Assembly (NCBI GenBank): GCA_025056215.1
Contig: JANWWC010000004.1
Coordinates: 1 to 64,000 of the forward strand
Source: Cytophagales bacterium
GTDB lineage: Bacteria; Bacteroidota; Bacteroidia; Cytophagales; Flammeovirgaceae
Direction of reading: 5' to 3'
DNA length: 64,000 bases
Shown: in pieces, positions 11,900 through 63,780 of the stretch
Position numbering within the stretch: the stretch's first letter is position 1
Layout: every line of letters starts with the position of its first letter
Position numbers and translations under genes: made by a program
The notes under the pieces: generated by a model
Seen by the model: only the letters and a program-made list of their open reading frames with translations
What the model was told of the DNA's origin: nothing
Databases searched by the model: none

Positions 11900-12862
11900 C
11901 TAATCTCTATAAATGGCGACAAATTCCTTCTCTCCTACTCGTTTATAAGCTCTATACATTCCTTCTGAATTGAAGCATAGATCTACATTACCGTATTTAT
12001 CTACAGCAATAACGCCTCCACTCGCATTCATTTTGACTAACTTATCTAACACAACTTTAGAGGCTGCCTCTTTGAGAGACATTCCAGCATATTCCATTAA
12101 GCAAGCAATATCATGAGCTACTACCGCCCGAATAAAGAATTCTCCATAGCCTGTACAAGAAACGGCACAAGAAGCGTTATTCGCATATGTACCTGCTCCT
12201 ATGATGGGGCTATCGCCAATACGACCAAATTTTTTATTAGTGAGTCCTCCTGTAGAGGTGGCTGCTGCTAAGTTTCCTTCTGCATCAAGAGCTACTGCAC
12301 CTACTGTTCCGAACTTTTTATCTTTCAGAATAATCCCTTCTTCATCTTCAGCTGAATGGTCTAAAGTTGCCTGATTAGTTTTTTTGGCCTCCATCCATTG
12401 TTCGTAGCGAAATTGGTCAAAAAAGTAGTCGGGGGGCATAATAGGAAGTTCGTATAAGCGCGCAAATTTGACTGCATCCGGACCGCATAAAAAAACGTGT
12501 CCCGATTTTTTCATAACAAGTTTCGCCAAGCGAATTGGATTTTTTACCCCCTCGACACAAGCAACTGCACCTGCTTCGAGAGTTTTACCGCACATAATCG
12601 CCGCATCCATTTCATGTGTACCTTTATTGGTAAACACCGAACCTTTTCCAGCATTAAATAAGGGACAGTCCTCCAGAACTATTACAGCTGCCTCTACAGC
12701 TTCGATTGCGCTTCCGCCTTTTTCAAGAATTTGGCTTCCTTTCAAAACAGCTTCTCTTAAAGCAGATTTGTATTTGACTTCTTTTTCTGGAGTCATAGAT
12801 TCTCGTGAGATAGTTCCCGCGCCTCCATGAACGGCGATAATCGGTTTAGGTGTTGTATTCAT
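11900..12862 (-). CDS. iaaA: Isoaspartyl peptidase / L-asparaginase (Ntn hydrolase)
   Basis: 320 aa, normal family length. The precursor cleaves itself before Thr186 in GTVGAVALD to give alpha and beta subunits; the new N-terminal Thr attacks beta-aspartyl peptide bonds or asparagine. The N-terminal HGGAGTIS, the NAGKGSVFT segment, the T-S-T-G-G loop (ATSTGGLTNKKFGRIGDSP) and GAGTYA are all present. The start at 12862 (MNTTPKP) is preferred because the upstream open frame would add residues foreign to the family. Enzymes of this family repair or recycle isoaspartyl peptides and also split beta-Asp-Arg dipeptides from cyanophycin, which may matter given the cyanophycin-synthetase-like gene at 59609. 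It has no signal peptide and is predicted cytoplasmic. Confidence 0.93.
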   Translation of the reverse strand: MNTTPKPIIAVHGGAGTISRESMTPEKEVKYKSALREAVLKGSQILEKGGSAIEAVEAAVIVLEDCPLFNAGKGSVFTNKGTHEMDAAIMCGKTLEAGAVACVEGVKNPIRLAKLVMKKSGHVFLCGPDAVKFARLYELPIMPPDYFFDQFRYEQWMEAKKTNQATLDHSAEDEEGIILKDKKFGTVGAVALDAEGNLAAATSTGGLTNKKFGRIGDSPIIGAGTYANNASCAVSCTGYGEFFIRAVVAHDIACLMEYAGMSLKEAASKVVLDKLVKMNASGGVIAVDKYGNVDLCFNSEGMYRAYKRVGEKEFVAIYRD

Positions 12863-12989
12863 AACTGGCTTGGTTAAGATATAAATGCGACAAAAATAGA
12901 GCATTTTAACGAAACTACAATATATTTCAATCGTTTTCATTGTTTTTTTCTTATTTTTTTCTCCATTTTTAGTAAAAAATAAAATTTTT

Positions 12990-16964: not shown

Positions 16965-18446
16965 ATGGAGACAACAACTCTTCAAACAACTAAAAAGCCG
17001 ATGACAGCATTAGAAATTCATTCCAGCTCTGAGGTGGGCAGATTGCGCCGCTTGATGATTCATAGCCCTGACGGAGGCTTAGGAAAAATCATACCGATTA
17101 AAGCACAAGAATGGCTTTTTGAAGATATTGTACATTTGGATACGATGCGCCGCAAAGAATACGACTATTATGTTAAAATTTTATTGTATTTCCTTGATCC
17201 AGAAAAAATAGCAGGACGCATCGCTGAAATTGATGATCCGCGTAACAATCGCAATTTTTATAAACCCACTCATCCTGATTATTTTAATTCTGATAAAGTC
17301 ATAGATCCGCAGCGGTTATTAATAGATATTCTTGACGATAGAGATTTGCGGAACAGAATCGTAGCATCGGTATGTGCGCACGAAAGAATTTCGTATACGA
17401 CGCAAGAAGCTCTTTATAAATTAAATTCAGCGCAATTGGCTACCACCTTGATTTCAGGCATTTTGCCCAACAAAAAAATTATTTTCGCCCCTATTCCTAA
17501 CTATATTTTCACTCGCGATATAGGAATTACAGTAAACGACCATATTATCCTTACGAAGTTTGCTAAGGAGGCGCGTTCTCGTGAAAATATTCTTACTAGA
17601 TATATACTCTTTAATCATCCTTATTTTGCGAATAACCGCGATAAAATTATTGAGATTACAGAAAACGAAGATTATTTCTTGTTAGAAGAGGACGAACAAA
17701 AAAATAAGCGCGTTTCTGTAGAAGGAGGCGATGTTATGACAGTAGCTCCTAATCATTTGTTGATAGGAGTAAGCGAACGCACTACTTTGCATGCAGTGAA
17801 TAAAGTAATCAAAGCACTTTTTGAACGAAACGTAGTAGAAAAAATTTCTGTTATTAAAATCCCGCCTCGCCGTGCTTATATGCATATCGATACAACATTT
17901 ACACAAGTAAAACGAAATGTATGGGTGATTTTTGCGCCTTTCTCTAGAGGAGGGAAAGACATAACCCAGCAAGATATTATTCCTGCATTAGGAGAAAACT
18001 TCCCATCTCCTTATGACTTAGAAATTCTTCAATTCCGCAAAGGAAATCTTACATCTCCGCGCCGATATGAATATTTAGAAGATTTGTTGGATGAAATCAG
18101 TCAGTTAGATCTCAAAAGTCGCAAGCCAACAGAATTTATTTATTCAGGTGATAACGTATTTCCACATGCTTCACGCGAGCAATGGACAGATTCTTGCAAT
18201 GTATTAGCACTAAAAGAAGGAGTAGTGATAGGATACGATCGGAATGATAAAACTGCAGATGCTTTTCGCAAAAAAGGCTTTGATGTGATTCATGCTGCCG
18301 ATCTTCTCGACCGATTTGAAAAAGGACTAACTACTCCAGAAGAAGTAGAGGACACGCTTATTTTGTTGCCTTCTGCTGAATTGTCGCGCGCTCGCGGAGG
18401 TTCTCATTGTATTAGTATGCCTCTTTGGCGCGATGCGATTGTATAA
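16965..18446 (+). CDS. Arginine deiminase family protein
   Basis: 493 aa. It belongs to the guanidino-group-modifying superfamily, and the arginine deiminase active-site set is present: Asp in FTRDIG, Glu and Asp in VEGGD, His in MHIDTTF, and the catalytic Cys482 in GGSHCISMPL near the C-terminus. The ARGGSHC ending resembles the R-x-R-G-G-P-R-C end of classical ArcA. Such enzymes convert arginine to citrulline and ammonia. At 493 aa it is longer than typical ArcA (about 410), mostly through an inserted N-terminal region (about 60-150), as in Bacteroidota homologues. No arcB, arcC or arcD lies nearby, so a full deiminase pathway is not shown here. A bidirectional terminator follows. Confidence 0.82.
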   Translation: METTTLQTTKKPMTALEIHSSSEVGRLRRLMIHSPDGGLGKIIPIKAQEWLFEDIVHLDTMRRKEYDYYVKILLYFLDPEKIAGRIAEIDDPRNNRNFYKPTHPDYFNSDKVIDPQRLLIDILDDRDLRNRIVASVCAHERISYTTQEALYKLNSAQLATTLISGILPNKKIIFAPIPNYIFTRDIGITVNDHIILTKFAKEARSRENILTRYILFNHPYFANNRDKIIEITENEDYFLLEEDEQKNKRVSVEGGDVMTVAPNHLLIGVSERTTLHAVNKVIKALFERNVVEKISVIKIPPRRAYMHIDTTFTQVKRNVWVIFAPFSRGGKDITQQDIIPALGENFPSPYDLEILQFRKGNLTSPRRYEYLEDLLDEISQLDLKSRKPTEFIYSGDNVFPHASREQWTDSCNVLALKEGVVIGYDRNDKTADAFRKKGFDVIHAADLLDRFEKGLTTPEEVEDTLILLPSAELSRARGGSHCISMPLWRDAIV

Positions 18447-59320: not shown

Positions 59321-59515
59321 CTATTGCGCAGGCTGGTCTGTTTTTGCACTTCCGCACGGCCTAGAGCAAGATGATTTTTTTTCAGTTGTCTCTTTTGTAC
59401 AAGATTTTTCACACTTCCCCTTTTTACCTTTTTCTTTATCTTTGTCAAAGGAAACTCCATAAGAGAAAGAACCTAACAAACCTAATAACAAAAAGGTCGC
59501 AATTATTTTTTTCAT
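59321..59515 (-). CDS. Small secreted Cys/Lys-rich protein
   Basis: About 64 aa, start at 59515, where a signal peptide begins (MKKIIATFLLLGLLGSFSYG). The mature part of about 45 residues is rich in Lys, Ser and Cys with CEKSC, SCSRPC and a Pro-Ala-Gln end. No family is recognised; the paired cysteines could form disulfides or bind metal. It is monocistronic with its own terminator. Confidence 0.6.
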   Translation of the reverse strand: MKKIIATFLLLGLLGSFSYGVSFDKDKEKGKKGKCEKSCTKETTEKKSSCSRPCGSAKTDQPAQ

Positions 59516-59608
59516 AAGTTCTCTGAATTTTGGGTGAAACCATGCCTTTATAAGAAATTTTTCATCAAAGAAGTTCTCATAATTAAAACATTTTAACAAA
59601 CATTAACA

Positions 59609-61663
59609 CTACTCGAATCTAGGCACTTTAATTTCATATTTATTGATGAGAGGCTTGAGCAATGGCGTAATTGCTTTTAATAAAATTTCGTCTTTTTGTT
59701 CTATATTATCGATATCATAAGAAGCAATTACTTGTTCATTTTGGATAATATCGATATTATTATCGTATAGTTTGACTATATAACCTCCTGGCAATACATC
59801 GGTTGCTAAAGTAGTTTCAGCGTAATAAGGGTCTTCTAAAATTACAATATCAGCACCTGTGTGATAAGTTCCAAAGTCGTGGATGTCGTCTTTTGTGTGT
59901 TGAATGAGCGCAAAATCCAGTTCAATATGCCTTAAAATGATTTGCACGTTGATATCGTGGCGAGGGTTTTTGGTGAAAAAGACGTCATTAAAATAAATTC
60001 CTTCATCAGTTAAACTACCGAATCTCTTCAAGTCAGGGTGGATTTCTTTAAGTTTTTTGTACAAAAGAGAACTAAACTGGTAAGAAATTTTATTACCTAC
60101 GATAATCGGGATTCGCGAATATTCTGGGGTAGGAAAGAAATGCTCAATGAGACGTCCTGGCACATCAATAGGTTCTCCGATAGCTGGGCAAAGGTGCATA
60201 AATACGCCTGGGCCCGCATTGATTTCAATAATTCCAAAATTTCCATCTGTCCAAGGTTTAGAAATATCTGCAGTTAGCACATCTATTCCCATCGCCGTAA
60301 CTCGGAAGAAACTAGCGATATTTTCTACTAAGCGCACATTTTTAGGGTGGATTTTATGAGTAACATTAATAGAAACCCCTCCTGCAGAAATATTAGCTAC
60401 TTTTCTCAAGAAAACTTGCTTTCCTTGCTCTGGAACTGATTCAAGCGTCAGATTTTGTGTTGCCAAATAGGCAATCATATTATCATCGATTACAATCTGA
60501 GAAAGTGGAGAGCGTAAACTTGGGTAGCGTTTAGGATTAGTTTCATTTTCTATCTTTATAAGTTCAGCAATTGTATGCACACCATCGCCAATCACATAAG
60601 GGGGTACACGCTCTAAAGCAGCTACGAATTTTCCACCAATTGCTAAAAGGCGGTGGTCATTCCCGTAAATCTGTTGTTCCACAATTGCTCCTTGGAATTC
60701 GGTTTGGTGTTCTTGGTGGTGCTTTAGAATGCGTTGAAAAGCTTCTTTAACACCTGTCAGGGTTTCTATGTTAGTAGTGACACCTTCTCCTTTATGACCA
60801 GCTAACGGTTTCACAACCAAAGGGAAGCCTAAGCGAATAGCTTCTTGGATTGCTTCTTCTTCTGTAAAGGTATTTTTTCCGCGAGGTGTAGGGAAGCCAC
60901 ACATCAACAGAAAATCTTTGCAAGCGTCTTTATAAGTAGTAAATTCCGTATCTTTGATGCCATCTACATCCAACACTGTGGAAGAGCCTCTGATTTGTTT
61001 TTTTCCGTAGCCCCATTGAAATTGCCGTTCGACCTCCAAAAAATTTACAGGAATATTTCGTTTCAGAGCAGCTTCAATCATAGAATAAATTGTTGGTCCT
61101 CCATAGGGGCTTCTATCGAACATCTTTTGAAGCTTGGCAAATTCTGTGTCTATATCAAATTCAAAACCACTTTCTGGCGTTGCAATGGAATAAAACCAGT
61201 CTGCTACTAAGTAGACAGCTTCTTCAGTAGTTATATCGTCGAGGTATTCTACAGCAATTACGTAGTCTTCCCCATCCATCGTAATATCGTAGCGATTGAT
61301 ATAAAGGTCGATATCCATTTTGAGCACTTCAATGAGAGCAGCAGCAAAGAGCTGTGCTACGTTCTGATAAGATTTTTGTGCAATACGAGGAAATTTGCGT
61401 GTAACCTCGGGTAGGAATGCCTCTACAGGGGGGGTGTTCGGAAAAATACTTAAATTAAAAACATAAGCATTGGTCCCTAAGTAGTAGTTAGGACCAGTAT
61501 AAGCATATTTCTTGCTAATCTTGAAGTTTTCATTTAAAAATACTTCGCTTTGCTTGCTTTCTTCTTTTCGTTGTTGAGTTTGATTAGTAGGAGAATCGGG
61601 AGAAGCAAACAGTCTTTTTAACTCTTTTTTAGAAATAGATTTTTTTTTGTTGCGAACAGGCAT
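59609..61663 (-). CDS. Cyanophycin-synthetase-like ATP-grasp protein with degenerate Mur-ligase domain
   Basis: 684 aa. After a basic, disordered start comes an N-terminal domain (about 50-220) like CphA1's, then an ATP-grasp (G) domain (about 245-505) with FPLVVKPLAGHKGEGV, IVEQQIYGNDHRLLAIGGK, VIGDGVHTI and NAGPGVFMHLCP. In CphA the third, Mur-ligase (M) domain starts R-I-P-I-V-A-V-T-G-T-N-G-K-T-T. Here RIPI is kept, but then reads IVGNKISYQFSSLLYKK, so the P-loop is gone. The rest still resembles the M domain (GSLTDEGIYFND, FALIQHTKDDIHDFG, ADIVILED) and is short. CphA adds Asp with G and Arg with M; so this enzyme might lengthen a peptide with one amino acid only, or be a regulator. No cyanophycinase is adjacent. 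Confidence 0.82.
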   Translation of the reverse strand: MPVRNKKKSISKKELKRLFASPDSPTNQTQQRKEESKQSEVFLNENFKISKKYAYTGPNYYLGTNAYVFNLSIFPNTPPVEAFLPEVTRKFPRIAQKSYQNVAQLFAAALIEVLKMDIDLYINRYDITMDGEDYVIAVEYLDDITTEEAVYLVADWFYSIATPESGFEFDIDTEFAKLQKMFDRSPYGGPTIYSMIEAALKRNIPVNFLEVERQFQWGYGKKQIRGSSTVLDVDGIKDTEFTTYKDACKDFLLMCGFPTPRGKNTFTEEEAIQEAIRLGFPLVVKPLAGHKGEGVTTNIETLTGVKEAFQRILKHHQEHQTEFQGAIVEQQIYGNDHRLLAIGGKFVAALERVPPYVIGDGVHTIAELIKIENETNPKRYPSLRSPLSQIVIDDNMIAYLATQNLTLESVPEQGKQVFLRKVANISAGGVSINVTHKIHPKNVRLVENIASFFRVTAMGIDVLTADISKPWTDGNFGIIEINAGPGVFMHLCPAIGEPIDVPGRLIEHFFPTPEYSRIPIIVGNKISYQFSSLLYKKLKEIHPDLKRFGSLTDEGIYFNDVFFTKNPRHDINVQIILRHIELDFALIQHTKDDIHDFGTYHTGADIVILEDPYYAETTLATDVLPGGYIVKLYDNNIDIIQNEQVIASYDIDNIEQKDEILLKAITPLLKPLINKYEIKVPRFE

Positions 61664-62806: not shown

Positions 62807-63190
62807 TTATTCGTTGTGGAGTACTTTCATGTTGATAGGCAAGTTGATGATTTCCTTAAAATCCATACCCGATTCGAGCATGTCTTCGTCGTCTTCTTCG
62901 TAGTACCAATCTACTTCTACTTTGTAACCTTTTTGTTGGATTTCTTCTAAACGACGAAACACTTCAACTAGGCATTTAGAAGAGCTTGTGTTAAAATATT
63001 CTAACTTTACTTCGAAAACAGTAACAGCGCGAGGTTGTTTCATGTATTGTTCCAGCCAATCGTAGAGAGGTTTGTAAAACTCTATTGAATTTTCTGGAAT
63101 AGAACGCCCTGCTAAAATCAATTTTCCTGCTTTGGCATCAAAAAATACCAAAGGTGTTTTAGATGTTTCAGCTAAATGAAGATTCTCCAT
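62807..63190 (-). CDS. siaC: SiaC-family regulatory phosphoprotein
   Basis: 127 aa, DUF1987. In Pseudomonas, SiaC is phosphorylated by SiaB and dephosphorylated by SiaA, and the unmodified form activates the cyclase SiaD. Here the modification site is kept: YFNTSSSKCLVEVFRRL, with Thr68 in NTSS. It is 17 nt after siaB and 8 nt before fabH. Neither SiaA nor SiaD is adjacent, so the target is unknown. A STAS protein (32936) in this window is another candidate member of such circuits. Confidence 0.9.
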   Translation of the reverse strand: MENLHLAETSKTPLVFFDAKAGKLILAGRSIPENSIEFYKPLYDWLEQYMKQPRAVTVFEVKLEYFNTSSSKCLVEVFRRLEEIQQKGYKVEVDWYYEEDDEDMLESGMDFKEIINLPINMKVLHNE

Positions 63191-63207
63191 CTTTCAAATA
63201 TTTTTAT

Positions 63208-63780
63208 TTATTCTGAGCTTAACGATATTTTTACCTTTAAAGTAAAAAAAGAGAAATCACGATCTGGAACTTTCTCAAACTGATATTCTAATTGTTTGCC
63301 AGATCTGCGAGCAATATCTAAAAATCCGAGCCCTGCGCCTCCTTTTGCCGAAAATTCTCCGTTATTGAGCGCCTCTCTGTAGGTATTTTTGATTTCCTCG
63401 AGCGACATGCGACAAATACTCTCTAAGCGCGATTTTAATGCTATGGTGTCTTTTTGGGCAATATAATTTCCGATAATAATTTCGTAGCCTTCGTCAGTTT
63501 TTAATAGCAAAAATAAGATAGCATCTAAATCTTCTAAGATGTACTCTTGCAAGGTTTTAATATCAAGGTGATGATAAATATTTTGCAACAATTCAACTAC
63601 AATCGTGTATACTTTTCTTCTTAGCTTGGCATGAGGCTCTAAGTATTTTATTTTGTTATCCACAATAGAAAGTATGGTGTCTAACAATTCGTTAGATGCC
63701 GAACCCTTATAAGCCAAAACAATGTTTTTTGACTGTAGAGACCGATAGTGTTGAATTGAATTGTCCAATATAGAAATCAA
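63208..63780 (-). CDS. siaB: SiaB-family protein kinase
   Basis: 190 aa, DUF6272, a GHKL-type ATPase/kinase related to anti-sigma kinases. The N-box is VVELLQNIYHHLD (about 61-73, Asn67) and the glycine-rich lid is GGAGLGFLDIARRSG (147-161). It phosphorylates SiaC, the next gene. siaB heads the siaB-siaC-fabH unit; the region upstream (63781-63851) is short and holds the promoter. The preceding gene, a glycosidase, ends 71 nt upstream on the same strand. Confidence 0.9.
   Translation of the reverse strand: MISILDNSIQHYRSLQSKNIVLAYKGSASNELLDTILSIVDNKIKYLEPHAKLRRKVYTIVVELLQNIYHHLDIKTLQEYILEDLDAILFLLLKTDEGYEIIIGNYIAQKDTIALKSRLESICRMSLEEIKNTYREALNNGEFSAKGGAGLGFLDIARRSGKQLEYQFEKVPDRDFSFFTLKVKISLSSE

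Follow-up and report, generated by a model that had tools for sequence, protein, structure and literature searches.

Introduction

The primary papers on cyanophycin synthetase 2 (CphA2) are reportedly Klemke 2016 and Sharon 2022. In the accessible parts of the articles cited here, CphA2 is presented as a cyanobacterial relative of CphA1 that possesses a single active site (PMC10206079) and joins beta-Asp-Arg dipeptides, such that the product is Asp-Arg cyanophycin (PMC9427784, PMC10206079). It is described there as recycling the dipeptides of degraded cyanophycin, and its N domain lacks the Cx19HxxEH motif (PMC9262961). For TeCphA1 a contact of R458 with the incoming Asp is described (PMC9427784). 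An operon of cphB and cphA2 (cphBA2) is named in the cyanobacterium Planktothrix (PMC9398003).

With respect to the use of cyanophycin, a "cyanophycin utilization locus" is attributed to Ben Hania 2017 in PMC10206079, and Citromicrobium, where a cyanophycinase adjoins a TonB-dependent receptor (PMC3400609), provides a precedent for a SusC-type locus. The text available to us further describes Bacillus horikoshii synthetases that lack arginine-site residues and are "similar to CphA2 and CphA2 prime" (PMC5532821), as well as a CphA1/CphA2 pair in Sideroxydans and Gallionella (PMC5178258). Four further articles (PMC9723704, PMC10943155, PMC10687191, PMC8560796) name no CphA2 outside cyanobacteria in their accessible parts. 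For Bacteroidota, Cloacimonadota, Chlorobiota and SAR324 we found no published CphA2 in literature whose coverage lacks most subscription papers, so that this is weak evidence of absence.

Here we analysed a protein encoded within 64,000 nucleotides of a Cytophagales bacterium (contig JANWWC010000004.1, positions 1 to 64,000), in the following called the window. A first-pass annotation of this DNA had described a G-domain-only enzyme with a degenerate Mur-ligase (M) domain, and had proposed an undescribed enzyme with a homopolymer or single-residue product.

Results

Domain layout of the window protein

The protein is encoded by an intact open reading frame (ORF) with an ATG start. Its features are as follows:

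59609..61663, minus strand: cphA2-type gene, 684 aa, judged from sequence and model most likely a beta-Asp-Arg (cyanophycin) polymerase
61529..61663, minus strand: N-terminal extension, residues 1-45, of low model confidence and without a match in the solved CphA2 chains
61109..61528, minus strand: CphA2-type N domain, residues ~46-185 (boundaries approximate), without the CphA1 zinc motif
60116..61108, minus strand: ATP-grasp G domain, residues ~186-516, with the tested catalytic positions intact and a CphA2-type H290-K291
59612..60115, minus strand: remnant of the Mur-ligase M domain, residues 517-684, without P-loop and lid
60071..60094, minus strand: place of the lost P-loop, residues 524-531, by alignment to CphA1

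The M domain begins with the RIPI text at residues 517-520, from which 168 residues extend to the C-terminal end, close to the approximately 165 residues estimated previously. At the columns of the CphA1 motif GTNGKTT the protein reads K-I-S-Y-Q-F-S (525-531), retaining none of the seven motif residues, and the alignment stops ahead of the lid module, which is absent. In a Pfam search at E <= 1, the 684 aa protein matched neither Mur_ligase_M nor the N domain typical of CphA1 (PF18921). The search returned general ATP-grasp matches only, which are misleading if used alone. The best NCBIfam matches were two cyanophycin synthetase models, one with 336 bits (cut-off 877) over residues 117-599 and the other with 321 bits (cut-off 850) over residues 130-566, both far too low to pass.

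The ATP-grasp ligands K245, K285, R338, D461, E480 and N482 are retained, and no P-loop was found further along the protein. Intact ATP-grasp module, kept RIPI text, replaced P-loop and shortened M domain had all been described correctly, and the reading as a G-domain-only enzyme held. The likeness to cyanophycin synthetase claimed for both the N and the G domain held for the G domain; the N domain has neither a PF18921 match nor the zinc motif, and CphA1 models cover only residues ~117-599.

Just downstream of cphA2 lies a 92 aa ORF (window 59321-59599) that by eye seems to start with a signal peptide and to end in a charged tail containing cysteine; it gave no Pfam match. A DUF6272 and SiaC gene pair is found near cphA2 as well (window 62807-63780), and a paralogous pair follows directly after the cyanophycin transporter of the same genome (L151:10247-11249, see below). 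If the genome contains many such pairs, their presence near both cyanophycin loci may be due to chance.

Similarity to solved CphA2 structures

Among the sequences of solved structures, two matched the window protein end to end: 7TA5 with 483.7 bits (query 46-670, 43% identity) and 8FXH with 482.8 bits (query 47-667, 41% identity). Solved CphA1 chains reached 210-228 bits over shorter stretches. While the depositors' molecule names for 7TA5 and 8FXH read "Glutathione synthase" and "RimK domain-containing protein", the entries are titled "cyanophycin synthetase 2 from Gloeothece citriformis" (7TA5) and, for 8FXH/8FXI, "Stanieria sp. CphA2".

We modelled the window protein with AlphaFold2 using 40 sequences as input (the window protein, 21 non-cyanobacterial loci and 18 of 59 cyanobacterial loci, see below). 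The model had a mean pLDDT of 86.3 and a pTM of 0.79. Confidence was low for the first ~43 residues, with pLDDT <50 across most of residues 1-43; the solved-chain matches begin at residues 46-47. The model superimposed on 7TA5 with a Foldseek E of 9.7e-65, Z 39.0 and an rmsd of 2.8 over 582 residues, and on 8FXI with Z 37.2 and an rmsd of 3.8 over 622 residues. CphA1 structures gave Z 24-29, the best one Z 28.6 with an rmsd of 4.6 over 601 residues. No family ranked above CphA2 and CphA1 for the model in Foldseek and VIA-align.

By sequence, fold and tree (see below) the window protein is nearer to solved CphA2 than to CphA1, and it has none of the CphA1 hallmarks (P-loop and lid in M, PF18921 N domain). 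The occurrence in a cyanobacterium given for CphA2 in the accessible part of PMC10206079 does not apply, judging from the Bacteroidota-type genes of the own genome and the grouping with non-cyanobacterial MAGs (see below); this concerns distribution and not mechanism. Family, fold, residues and gene content of the window CphA2 are direct observations. The suggestion of an undescribed enzyme has to be dropped, since the architecture is already known as CphA2, solved as 7TA5 and 8FXH/8FXI.

Catalytic and marker residues

SuCphA1 positions were mapped by alignment and counted over 9 CphA1, 61 cyanobacterial CphA2 (59 loci and the two solved chains), 22 non-cyanobacterial CphA2 (including the window protein) and 17 copies of a degenerate CphA1 relative, called partner B below. 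The duplicate protein copies L129, L134 and L137 were left out. K220, K261, R309, R323, N394, S396, D431, E450 and N452 are retained in all 83 CphA2-type proteins, and the window protein retains these together with G398 and G399, i.e. 11 out of 11 G-domain positions. The P-loop motif is lost throughout: no Thr occurs at the second motif column in any of the 83 proteins, and G[ST]xGK[ST] was found in 0 of the 80 locus proteins. The same holds for the zinc motif of CphA1, where position 57 is never His and position 59 never Cys (83/83). In the window protein both of these columns are gaps and H79, E82 and H83 are replaced by N, Q and L, such that the Cx19HxxEH motif is absent.

Position 267 is Lys in 83/83 CphA2-type proteins (K291 in the window protein), compared to His in eight and Gln in one of the nine CphA1. 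Position 458 is Arg in all nine CphA1 and Phe in 22/22 non-cyanobacterial CphA2 (window F488); in cyanobacterial CphA2 it varies between F (20/61), Y, L, S, M and N. These exchanges bear on the earlier idea that the G domain alone uses free amino acids, resulting in a homopolymer or a single-residue addition. Such an activity would fit the one ATP-dependent active site that is left. However, H267->K and the loss of R458 separate the window protein from the Asp-adding CphA1, and the end-to-end match to the solved CphA2 chains, described as dipeptide-joining, disfavours it further; we consider it hardly credible. As CphA2 links beta-Asp-Arg dipeptides according to the accessible text of PMC9427784 and PMC10206079, the expected product would be Asp-Arg cyanophycin and not a homopolymer.

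Position 215 is Glu in 9/9 CphA1 and in 22/22 non-cyanobacterial CphA2 (window E240) but Asp in 60/61 cyanobacterial CphA2. Among the 18 G-domain positions checked, it is the only one that sets the window protein apart from nearly all cyanobacterial CphA2. Together with the uniform Phe at 458, which is variable in cyanobacterial CphA2, it would suit a polymerase of the CphA2 fold with a different isoaspartyl dipeptide (e.g. beta-Asp-Lys) or a mixture as substrate, and hence a cyanophycin variant as product. Glu215 is, however, also the CphA1 state, where it meets the Arg side chain (PMC9427784, accessible part). A substrate other than beta-Asp-Arg appears unlikely to us.

Distribution and phylogeny

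From a genome contig scan with a three-sequence alignment we took the best 80 of 148 relatives. By record title, 59 of these 80 are cyanobacterial and 21 non-cyanobacterial. The latter are loci of metagenome-assembled genomes (MAGs), 18 from Bacteroidota and one each from Cloacimonadota, Chlorobiota and SAR324; since L042 and L046 belong to the same MAG, the 21 loci correspond to 20 genomes. Over the best segment, identity to the window protein was 47-55% for the non-cyanobacterial members and 38-42% for the cyanobacterial ones. The expected family of proteins with intact ATP-grasp module and no P-loop does exist, its non-cyanobacterial members being 631-721 aa long at 21/21 loci.

A CphA2 tree of 49 rows (the window protein, the 21 non-cyanobacterial loci, a random 18 of the 59 cyanobacterial loci, two solved chains and 7 CphA1) was built by a quick method without bootstrap. 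The non-cyanobacterial CphA2 formed a 22-row clade (support 99*) whose stem measures 0.96 changes per column, a length that would also agree with another dipeptide substrate. The window protein is the deepest branch of this clade, sister to the other 21 (support 94, not starred).

Close to the host, the gene is rare. No second genome with a CphA2-type match was seen among 58 relatives, the own genome included; the 19 other matches in this set comprised 8 CphA1-like ones (frames of 876-931 aa), 10 partial ones (764-782 aa) and one marginal one. Likewise, only one of 395 genomes of the class gave a CphA2 match at E <= 1e-90, namely the own genome. The partner B profile matched 158 of these 395 genomes at E <= 1e-120, with a shortest frame of 803 aa among the matches listed; CphA1-type proteins are common there. 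The GC content of cphA2 is 0.382 compared to 0.375 +- 0.019 for its surroundings, such that base composition gives no sign of recent transfer. A plasmid search returned 131 records. Among the 30 listed, 19 were cphA/cyanophycin synthetase, 3 N-acetylglutaminylglutamine synthetase and 8 other, and two of those listed, both annotated cphA, spanned 80% of the query.

A gene that stands alone, is the sole such match both in the 58 relatives and in the 395 class genomes, and encodes a degenerate M domain may alternatively be a catalytically silent remnant, either retained in a scaffolding role or in the course of being lost. We regard this as very unlikely given that the G domain has kept every tested position for ATP, magnesium and substrate, that the ORF is intact with a GC content like its surroundings, and that 48-54% identity to the 21 other non-cyanobacterial members is kept.

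Gene neighbourhoods in relatives

Neighbouring genes of the 21 non-cyanobacterial loci were clustered by blastp and one member of each cluster was checked with NCBIfam, giving 207.9 bits for cyanophycinase (cut-off 126.6) and 492.3 bits for isoaspartyl dipeptidase (cut-off 331.25). The counts that follow leave L051 unscored, and at several loci the contig stops a short way from CphA2. At 6/21 loci (L041, L045, L048, L053, L056, L061) the ORF directly upstream of CphA2 is of cyanophycinase type. An isoaspartyl-dipeptidase-type ORF is found downstream at 8/21 loci (L041, L045, L046, L047, L048, L050, L052, L053), in L052 one gene further off. Either or both occur beside CphA2 at 10/21 loci. The cyanophycinase-type genes adjoining 6/21 of the family's genes argue against a dipeptide other than beta-Asp-Arg.

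Eight loci (L042, L043, L044, L049, L055, L058, L059, L060) encode a CphA2 with an N-terminal extension that looks coiled-coil-like by eye. In five of these (L043, L044, L055, L058, L059) a clustered, exported-looking ORF of 267-410 aa lies directly upstream of CphA2, and none of the eight loci has a cyanophycinase-type ORF.

A degenerate CphA1 relative accompanies CphA2

CphA1 above the TIGR02068 cut-off was found in one of the 20 genomes of the non-cyanobacterial CphA2 loci (G065, 1274 bits). Alongside CphA2, 18/20 genomes contain a CphA1-like protein that scores under this cut-off and is in some cases in pieces. In G061, neither CphA1 nor this protein was found in the same search. We call it partner B:

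L041:3895-5991, L048:13158-15365, L061:11913-13445, L122-L128, L130-L133, L135, L136, L138: partner B

It lies directly beyond CphA2 or beyond the isoaspartyl dipeptidase in L041, L048 and L061. In a tree, partner B formed one clade beside CphA1 (15 rows, 99*; the fragmentary rows L123 and L138 were left out).

In 16/18 cases the partner B match extends no further than position 717 of the 862-position model and so lacks the lid, although in one of these, G058, the lid may merely be cut off by the contig end; for G062 and G076 it extends to 795-797. A loss of M activity is suggested mainly by the missing lid, as the P-loop often still reads GSxGK[ST]. Residues were examined in 17 of the 18 proteins, with G074 left out. 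In the G site R323 is lost (16/16), S396 is not Ser (15/17) and G456 is Asp or Asn (16/16). Against a dead G site, R309 is retained in 16/16 and the magnesium ligands D431, E450 and N452 in 14, 14 and 13 of 16. The SAR324 partner B (L061) is only 510 aa long and its G domain is missing entirely. The N-domain zinc site (H57, C59, H79, E82, H83) is retained in 15/15 proteins having the region. From these sequence features we infer a role in primer cutting or chain opening. No report of partner B was found in the literature, with the same limited coverage lacking most subscription papers, which makes this weak evidence.

Cyanophycin genes in the own genome

The own genome has 2.83 Mb and is 99.52% complete. 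Nothing in it scored above the TIGR02068 cut-off for CphA1, the best match being the window gene itself (321 bits). The next one, a 491 aa frame with 122 bits, was also the best Mur_ligase_M match. PF18921 gave no match in the own genome at E <= 1, the control being positive in 1 of 14 genomes, and no partner B was found in it.

Two proteins scored above the cyanophycinase cut-off (TIGR02069, 126.6). One has 393 aa (209 bits) and no evident signal peptide, such that it looks cytosolic; the other has 302 aa (164 bits) and by eye a lipoprotein-like start of the exported type. The gene for the 302 aa protein precedes that for a DcuC-family transporter (PF03606, 377 bits; YfcC model 398 of 500, under the cut-off) and adjoins divergent SusC (TIGR04056, 897 bits) and SusD (PF07980, 108 bits) genes. 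SusC/SusD genes, as well as those with T9SS sorting domains, are marks of Bacteroidota. Two features are of interest here:

L151:3172-10229 (own genome, contig C9): locus of SusC/SusD, exported lipoprotein-like cyanophycinase and DcuC transporter
11900..12940 (window), minus strand: isoaspartyl-peptidase family gene (PF01112, 382 bits), candidate for the last step of cyanophycin use

The isoaspartyl-peptidase gene reached 381 bits with PRK10226, under the cut-off of 567; we infer a link between it and CphA2. A similar exported-type cyanophycinase was found at E <= 1e-30 in 11/57 other relatives. In the ~17-18 kb stretches around these genes DcuC occurred in 10/11 and near-full-length SusC (31-39% identity) together with SusD (27-32%) in 7/11, while two further relatives had only a partial SusC match near the stretch edge. 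None of the 11 relatives gave a CphA2-type match. Uptake locus and CphA2 are therefore separable, and the former does not require the latter.

The own genome has seven PF08245 matches. The one viewed, a 562 aa ORF in a 586 aa frame, carries GTHGKTT and is presumably Mpl-like. A free-standing Mur ligase as dipeptide maker was set aside on this reading of one of the seven.

T9SS sorting domains are also present in three large proteins resembling S51 peptidases (L038:10-2283, L153:3190-5694, L154:2686-5169). These are weakly cyanophycinase-like, their scores of 56-65 bits being under the cyanophycinase cut-off. A 493 aa arginine-deiminase-family protein (window 16965-18446; 240 of 414 bits, under the NCBIfam cut-offs) is a possible route for arginine use.

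Discussion

The window protein is probably a CphA2 that catalyses the same reaction as its cyanobacterial counterparts, i.e. the ATP-dependent joining of beta-Asp-Arg. Reaction and substrate are taken over here from what is known of the CphA2 family. At the single ATP-grasp site, ATP would activate the C-terminal carboxylate of the cyanophycin chain, which would then be coupled to an entire beta-Asp-Arg dipeptide through the amino group of the latter; the M remnant would be structural.

For the cell, we tentatively propose a cycle in which the bacterium harvests foreign cyanophycin and stores its dipeptides again. External cyanophycin, acquired via SusC/SusD, the exported cyanophycinase and the DcuC-type transporter, would supply the dipeptides. 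CphA2 would re-store them inside the cell, from where the cytosolic-looking cyanophycinase and the isoaspartyl peptidase could release them. Several observations count against the proposed function. In its own genome cphA2 adjoins no recognised cyanophycin gene, and the isoaspartyl peptidase is ~47 kb away. This peptidase and the transporter both score under NCBIfam cut-offs, relatives use the uptake locus without CphA2, and position 215 carries Glu where nearly all cyanobacterial CphA2 carry Asp. As neither CphA1 nor partner B was found in the own genome, there is also no evident source of primer.

A broader and somewhat more doubtful view is that cyanophycin storage may be run by CphA2 without a working CphA1. 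In the window bacterium, scavenged dipeptides would be re-polymerised. In the Bacteroidota, Cloacimonadota, Chlorobiota and SAR324 MAGs, primer cutting by the endo-cyanophycinase site of partner B and dipeptide joining would be split over two proteins. If true, cyanophycin would be stored without being made de novo by a CphA2 clade in whose genomes CphA1 above the cut-off occurs in 1/20, and its scavenging would be linked to storage in heterotrophs. Further one-site polymerases would also become available for making cyanophycin from dipeptides.

Comparison with known systems

What the Bacillus horikoshii and the Sideroxydans/Gallionella "CphA2" have in common with the window protein is the name and the descriptions given in the respective papers; they may belong to the same family. 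With the cyanophycin utilization locus the own genome shares an exported cyanophycinase with transporter, SusC and SusD; it differs in that the isoaspartyl peptidase is located elsewhere and a polymerase is carried as well. With CphA1 the window protein shares a related G domain (210-228 bits), in which K220, K261, R309, R323, N394, S396 and the magnesium ligands are common, whereas P-loop, lid, PF18921 N domain and the usual zinc site (present in 7/9 CphA1 here) are all missing. Compared to the solved CphA2 of Gloeothece citriformis (7TA5) and Stanieria sp. (8FXH/8FXI), it differs by belonging to a separate deep clade, by Glu instead of the usual Asp at 215, by a ~45-residue N-terminal extension and by an own genome in which no CphA1 was found. 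It agrees with them in domain order, in the loss of P-loop and lid, in the intact G domain with its GHKG loop, in the absence of the N-domain zinc motif and in the fold over 582-622 residues.
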